Assembly (NCBI GenBank): GCA_027324255.1 | Contig: DAHVTI010000130.1 | Location: forward strand, 1 to 42,415 | DNA from: Bryobacterales bacterium | GTDB taxonomy: Bacteria > Acidobacteriota > Terriglobia > Bryobacterales > Bryobacteraceae | Direction: 5' to 3' | DNA length: 42,415 bases | Part shown: positions 42,017 to 42,415 of the stretch, in pieces | How the letters are laid out: each line of letters begins with the position of its first letter | Numbering within the stretch: the stretch's first letter is position 1 | Translations under genes and position numbers: made by a program | Notes under the pieces: generated by a model | What the model saw: the letters and a program-made list of their open reading frames with translations, nothing else | What the model was told of the DNA's origin: nothing | Databases searched by the model: none

Positions 42017-42045
42017 TTGACAATCCACCATTCGTCCATTATGAT
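42017..42045 (+). promoter_or_regulatory. Sigma70-type promoter TTGACA-N17-TATGAT
   Basis: -35 TTGACA at 42017-42022, -10 TATGAT at 42040-42045, 17-bp spacer. Confidence 0.85.
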
Positions 42046-42082
42046 CGGGCCATCACTGAAGAAAGGAGGTGGTCCAGCAAAC

Positions 42083-42127
42083 ATGACTTCTGGTAGTTAT
42101 TGCCCGCGTGAGGTGGTCGACTGCTGA
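42083..42127 (+). CDS. Possible 14-aa mini-ORF MTSGSYCPREVVDC
   Basis: ATG downstream of an extended SD, in-frame TGA at 42125-42127; too short for coding statistics. Confidence 0.35.
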   Translation: MTSGSYCPREVVDC

Positions 42128-42237
42128 AGCTCATTCTGGTCACGCTCTGGCCCGTCTTCAGTGCAGAGGGCCAAAGTTCAAAGTGATCGGCCACTGAGCG
42201 TGTTCTTCAGGCCGCAGGTCTGAAAACCAGGCTACCG

Positions 42238-42272
42238 CAAACCCCGCCGCCGGAGTCCGGCTGCGGGGTTTG
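42238..42272. terminator. Strong GC-rich hairpin, likely intrinsic terminator (possibly bidirectional)
   Basis: CAAACCCCGC-c-GCCGGA-g-TCCGGC-t-GCGGGGTTTG, near-perfect inverted repeat with 16 paired positions and one internal mismatch. Confidence 0.8.
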
Positions 42273-42299
42273 TTCGGGTGCACGACGTAGAAGTGGAGA

Positions 42300-42415
42300 T
42301 CAAGCCGCCCGGCGGGTCTCCCAGTAGTCTTCGAAGCGGCCGTTGAATTGGCAGCATCGCAAGGCCAGGATAGCGTTGGCGCCGCGCACGGTCCAGAACA
42401 TGCCCGATTGTTTGC
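42300..42415 (-). mobile_element. C-terminal end of an ISKra4-like transposase, running off the window
   Basis: Minus-strand translation KQSGMFWTVRGANAILALRCCQFNGRFEDYWETRRAA*, resembling the C-terminal end of ISKra4-type transposases. Confidence 0.72.

Follow-up and report, generated by a model that had tools for sequence, protein, structure and literature searches.

Ms_IGR-5 (RF02471) is filed in Rfam as an sRNA gene under the description "Actinobacteria sRNA," with no function assigned. Its mycobacterial relative is known to be expressed, ribosome footprints have been recorded on homologs in Mycobacterium abscessus and Mycobacterium smegmatis (PMC4974804), and in Streptomyces the RNA is its own transcription unit (PMC8079986, PMC8780764). 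The papers that we found mention it briefly, and in none of them did we find described either an open reading frame (ORF) within the RNA or a GAGGUG motif set nine bases before a stop codon. Here we analyzed a 42,415-nt stretch of DNA from a Bryobacterales bacterium (contig DAHVTI010000130.1; hereafter, the window), the last few hundred bases of which encode an RNA that we treat, from sequence comparison, as a divergent branch of the Ms_IGR-5 lineage and not as a formal member. We put at roughly 55% the probability that it is such a branch acting by being translated, with the ribosome held at the stop codon and its occupancy setting the fold of the RNA.

The original prediction recognized no matching RNA family, which holds for the window copy but not for its homologs. 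An Rfam search of the window gave no match at the gathering score, which is 45 bits for RF02471, nor at E values up to 10; the window copy thus falls below any reporting limit, and it does not align to the RF02471 consensus structure, the Bryobacteraceae helix P2 lying closer to the start of the ORF than the helix of the Rfam model. Acidobacterial homologs, however, reach RF02471 (L195, L207, and L208, with 49.5, 50.3, and 50.6 bits), and R1, a covariance model built from 40 Bryobacteraceae sequences, matches at the same coordinates as RF02471 in such homologs from other families. For a Nocardia copy (L239), RF02471 gives 142.7 bits, and R1 finds it reciprocally, if weakly (20.1 bits, E = 6.6e-5), with a start within 1 nt. 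It is because homologs reach RF02471 at the places of the R1 matches, and because R1 finds the Nocardia copy, that we favor a divergent branch. The two groups share the same start (ACAC...), a long Shine–Dalgarno sequence (AAGGAGGUGGUCC in Ms_IGR-5), GUGAGGUG near the ORF end, an in-frame stop 9 nt after the motif (the Nocardia ORF reads MDSSRTREVAVR and then stops), a helix at the ORF end, an AAUNCC...CACC module, and a terminal hairpin, whereas the Bryobacteraceae have their own P2 position, P3 hairpin, and 5′-end/loop pairing. An RNA filed as a noncoding actinobacterial sRNA thus belongs to a lineage that spans at least two phyla, has a homolog in mycobacteria and Streptomyces, and is almost certainly translated.

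Other described RNAs resemble the window RNA in part. Like 6S RNA and Ms1, it is a free-standing, housekeeping-like RNA of ∼200 nt, but it lacks the open rod and targets ribosome signals, not RNA polymerase; a 6S-like identity, which the original prediction had left open, was rejected, as the window has no RF00013 match and the 6S match of this genome lies on contig C376. A tmRNA identity was likewise rejected (no RF00023 match in the window; the tmRNA of the genome is on contig C302): both are structured RNAs in which ribosomes read a short ORF, but the window RNA has a Shine–Dalgarno-led start and no tRNA-like part was seen in it. The bS21-binding OLE RNA is a large-RNA element that mimics a Shine–Dalgarno/anti–Shine–Dalgarno (SD/anti-SD) duplex (PMC12054373), but OLE carries an anti-SD mimic whereas the SDs of the window RNA are directed at the real anti-SD and are accompanied by an ORF, and the sequences are unrelated. 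Finally, in leader-peptide attenuators and regulatory upstream ORFs a ribosome on a short ORF also decides the downstream RNA fold, but the window RNA has its own terminator and neither a fixed downstream gene nor a conserved peptide.

A free-standing promoter–RNA–terminator unit, as originally claimed, is present at 42017 to 42275 on the forward strand, supported by a promoter match, the R1 match, and folding. The σ70-type promoter (42017 to 42045; TTGACA at 42017 to 42022, a 17-nt spacer, and TATGAT at 42040 to 42045) was found with 11 of 12 consensus matches, compared with 0.2 such sites per region in shuffled sequence, and TTGAC precedes 147 of 166 elements (6% expected) with a spacer of 17 to 18 nt. 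From the predicted start at A42052, the RNA would run ∼224 nt to the terminator (42052 to 42275). R1 aligns to 42052 to 42205 with 92.9 bits (E = 1.3e-27), and the RNA has a folding z of −4.4, better than 200 shuffles. The strong terminal hairpin (42238 to 42272) folds as had been described, with a poor T-tract (GTTTGTTC); a simple terminator scan did not call this hairpin. It is preceded by a 3′ module, AGGCCGCAGG...AGGCTACCG (42209 to 42238), which is similar in relatives as judged by eye and which, in a homolog, aligned to the Rfam consensus GCgAAUuCC..AGuCACC.

The 17-nt complement of the 16S rRNA 3′ tail on which the original prediction centered, AAAGGAGGTGGTCCAGC at 42062 to 42078, was confirmed and proved to be longer. 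With its flanks (AGAAAGGAGGUGGUCCAGC, 42060 to 42078, forward strand; hereafter, SD1), this ultra-long Shine–Dalgarno sequence is complementary to the whole tail, forming 19 contiguous pairs, 18 Watson–Crick and one G–U, with GCTGGATCACCTCCTTTCT; the 16S 3′ end of the source genome is absent from its assembly, and the comparison is with the 16S of relatives (GCGGCTGGATCACCTCCTTTCTAAG). The pairing energy of the 19 contiguous pairs is −37.4 kcal/mol, against −10.1 kcal/mol for AAGGAGG alone. In its own genome the SD1 motif (up to two mismatches) occurs here and at one weaker place, and among 1.8 Mb of related loci, counted on both strands, complements of at least 15 nt occur in 121 elements and once elsewhere. 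Complementarity among elements reaches 19 to 21 nt. The core AAGGAGG(N)TGRTCC is common to Acidobacteriota, with one further mismatch in the Nocardia copy, and one family preserves the outer part despite a base insertion (AAGGAGGATGATCCAGCC). By this comparison, conservation of SD1 reaches far beyond need. SD1 is not simply maximized, because the wobble G is retained where an A would pair better. Sequestration of SD1 by downstream RNA was considered but not adopted: its mean z (−1.1) is weaker than that of ORF-end pairing (−2.4), and the partner varies. The minimum-energy fold of the window copy does pair SD1.

Downstream of SD1 lies a 14-codon mini-ORF, MTSGSYCPREVVDC (42083 to 42127, forward strand, stop TGA at 42125 to 42127). 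An in-frame ORF of 11 to 22 codons, starting with ATG or GTG, is found in 168 of 169 distinct elements; its length varies, its frame is constant, and its stop is TGA in 66, TAG in 56, and TAA in 46. Glutamate (or lysine) and valine (or glycine) stand at codons −5 and −4 in the 168 in-frame elements. In the window these two codons, GAG GUG, form a second Shine–Dalgarno-like motif (SD2, 42110 to 42115), exactly 9 nt before the stop codon. The GAGGUG–9-nt–stop pattern holds in at least ten families and in Nocardia, in all true elements listed from the phylum-wide set, and in human-gut actinobacterial-like copies. We consider translation of the mini-ORF to be strongly supported by these comparisons. 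AGT accounts for 248 of 439 serine codons in the mini-ORFs and for none of 83 in four window genes, a richness that may slow the ribosome or just avoid structure. Reinitiation near the stop is unlikely, no start codon being conserved within −4 to +15 nt. In one family (L209, L212, and L246 to L250) the GAGGTG motif appears twice in the ORF (SEV...TREV), and the 9-nt distance to the stop applies to the second alone. The sole element with its ORF out of frame to GAGGTG is L009, where a stop follows the motif by 8 nt.

SD2 was overlooked in the original prediction, as were two conserved pairings. Helix P2 joins the last ORF codons, SD2 included (5′ strand, 42105 to 42119), to RNA ∼80 nt downstream (3′ strand, 42188 to 42202); the window copy forms 13 of its 15 pairs. 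Hairpin P3 (42148 to 42173) has the loop UCAGUG, and CACUGA at the 5′ end (42054 to 42059) pairs with this inner hairpin loop (42158 to 42163) as a pseudoknot or alternative helix, with 94% of cells paired and two pairs changed on both sides. Taken together, P2, P3, and the 5′ pairing have 91.7% of cells paired and 13 pairs changed on both sides, compared with 28 to 48% in slid controls. Thus, at the level of alignment covariation, P2 and P3 are shown. The minimum-energy fold of the window RNA differs from this conserved fold. P2 as drawn is lineage specific: as judged by eye, other families likewise pair the end of the ORF with downstream RNA, but at a shifted position.

The original prediction called for conservation in related genomes, which blastn demonstrated, with a match in 51 of 61 sampled genomes of the family, at one place per genome except for one genome with two partial matches inside one unit. 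A 23-nt pattern was found on at least 120 contigs, nearly all labeled Bryobacterales or Acidobacteria. Class-wide, R1 matched 104 of 250 genomes, with one copy in nearly every same-family genome among the matches listed (the exception seen was G232); outside this family it matched a second family of the order and, less strongly, f11, a further large family of the class. A stringent pattern matched 64 of 396 genomes of the phylum, and the inspected matches were genuine except for two chance matches with no ORF (L241 and L242). By these searches, the unit is single copy and near-universal in the Bryobacteraceae and recurs across the Acidobacteriota.

These features suggest how the RNA might work. 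Made from its own promoter, it would capture a 30S subunit through pairing of SD1 with the entire 16S 3′ tail, and the ribosome would read 11 to 22 codons, many of them rare and AU-rich, up to the stop codon. At termination the last sense codon occupies the P site, and the usual distance from an SD to the P-site codon is known from initiation. The GAGG of SD2 is separated from the last sense codon downstream by 8 nt, which falls within that usual distance. Because the two distances correspond, a second anti-SD pairing would be possible at SD2, by which a terminating 70S ribosome or recycled 30S subunit may be held. A ribosome at the stop would have to open P2, the helix into which SD2 and the ORF end are paired; when the ribosome is absent, P2 and the 5′-end/loop pairing would form. 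The two folds, ribosome-free and ribosome-held, could report or buffer free 30S capacity. We infer the holding at the stop by SD2, the two-state behavior, and the physiological output from sequence, and sensing or buffering of free 30S subunits is our leading guess for that output. Holding at the stop is an argument from spacing; moreover, L009 breaks the in-frame rule with its 8-nt spacing, and in the Bryobacteraceae GAGGUG is part of the P2 5′ strand, a role that would be enough to conserve it in that family, although elsewhere the helix is placed differently and the GAGGUG–stop spacing is still the same. The strict rule of GAGGUG, nine bases, and stop makes the mechanism testable, and, if correct, the RNA would join a small set of bacterial ribosome-sensing or ribosome-storing devices. 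More tentatively, Ms_IGR-5 and its acidobacterial relatives may possibly form one ancient, near-universal class that captures and parks (or counts) ribosomes; an RNA device of this kind, for ribosome sensing or hibernation, would be previously undescribed.

The mini-ORF could instead encode a functional peptide, with the RNA as its strongly translated mRNA; the conserved frame and the invariant REV near the C terminus are what this would predict. The remainder of the peptide, however, has a pN/pS of 0.84 in its middle and varies from 11 to 22 residues, and the E and the V are each confined to one codon. Codon −5 is GAG in 167 of 168 elements (70% GAG expected from four window genes) and codon −4 is GTG in 155, GTT in 7, GGT in 4, GTA in 2, and never GTC (79% GTG and 18% GTC in the same four genes), counts that include related sequences, so that probabilities computed from them overstate the case. 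This restriction to one codon each means that selection acts on the nucleotides GAGGUG. The amino acids are not visibly selected, indicating from substitution patterns that translation matters and not its product, and we regard a functional peptide as very improbable. The original prediction had itself offered two readings, a very strong ribosome-capturing leader for the 14-residue ORF and an RNA titrating the anti-SD. The former gains from the nearly constant frame; a passive decoy, titrating the anti-SD but not itself translated, would account for the length of the complementarity, but the start codon, the frame, and the position of the stop are all conserved, which leaves a plain untranslated titrator unsupported and makes it the reading to which we give least credence.

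A role in cis, as an attenuator or leader of the downstream gene, would fit the Bryobacteraceae, where that gene is often rpmE, encoding bL31, itself a ribosomal protein: of the 154 elements with sufficient sequence, 76 have rpmE downstream and in the same orientation, with a median of 279 nt from the RNA start to the rpmE ATG. Yet rpmE is preceded by its own −10-like box in 70 of these 76, other families have thiG or tsaD downstream, and in the source genome rpmE is on another contig, apparently beyond an insertion sequence (IS) that looks to have inserted between the RNA and rpmE. Since rpmE has its own −10-like box, the downstream genes vary, and an IS seems to separate rpmE from the RNA here, the neighbors are unlikely to be the target, and we judge a cis role to be quite unlikely. 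A dual-function base-pairing sRNA, whose 3′ part regulates mRNAs in trans while mini-ORF translation only gates folding or stability, would fit a free-standing, terminator-ended RNA of ∼220 nt with a similar 3′ module across families and in the Rfam consensus, and other Ms_IGR-type RNAs are annotated as sRNAs. Its most conserved parts are nonetheless ribosome signals and not a seed region, and we hold this reading to be unlikely.

Several traces suggest such an IS. On the reverse strand of the window (42302 to 42415), and also in L271, is the end of a transposase-like ORF (KQSGMFWTVRGANAILALRCCQFNGRFEDYWETRRAA before its stop), putatively ISKra4-like. A second occurrence of GTTTGTTC (42268 to 42275 in the window) adjoins rpmE on contig C209, with ends reading GGGTGC/GCACCC. 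As for carriage by phages, a search of IMG/VR for the composite pattern gave no exact match. A complete Ms_IGR-5 of 76.9 bits, either phage-borne or from bacterial contamination, is present on an unverified scaffold of a human-gut bacteriophage (L240; MT835602.1, 15373 to 15435). One contig labeled Bordetella parapertussis (L090) bears a Bryobacteraceae element and is a mislabeled genome record.
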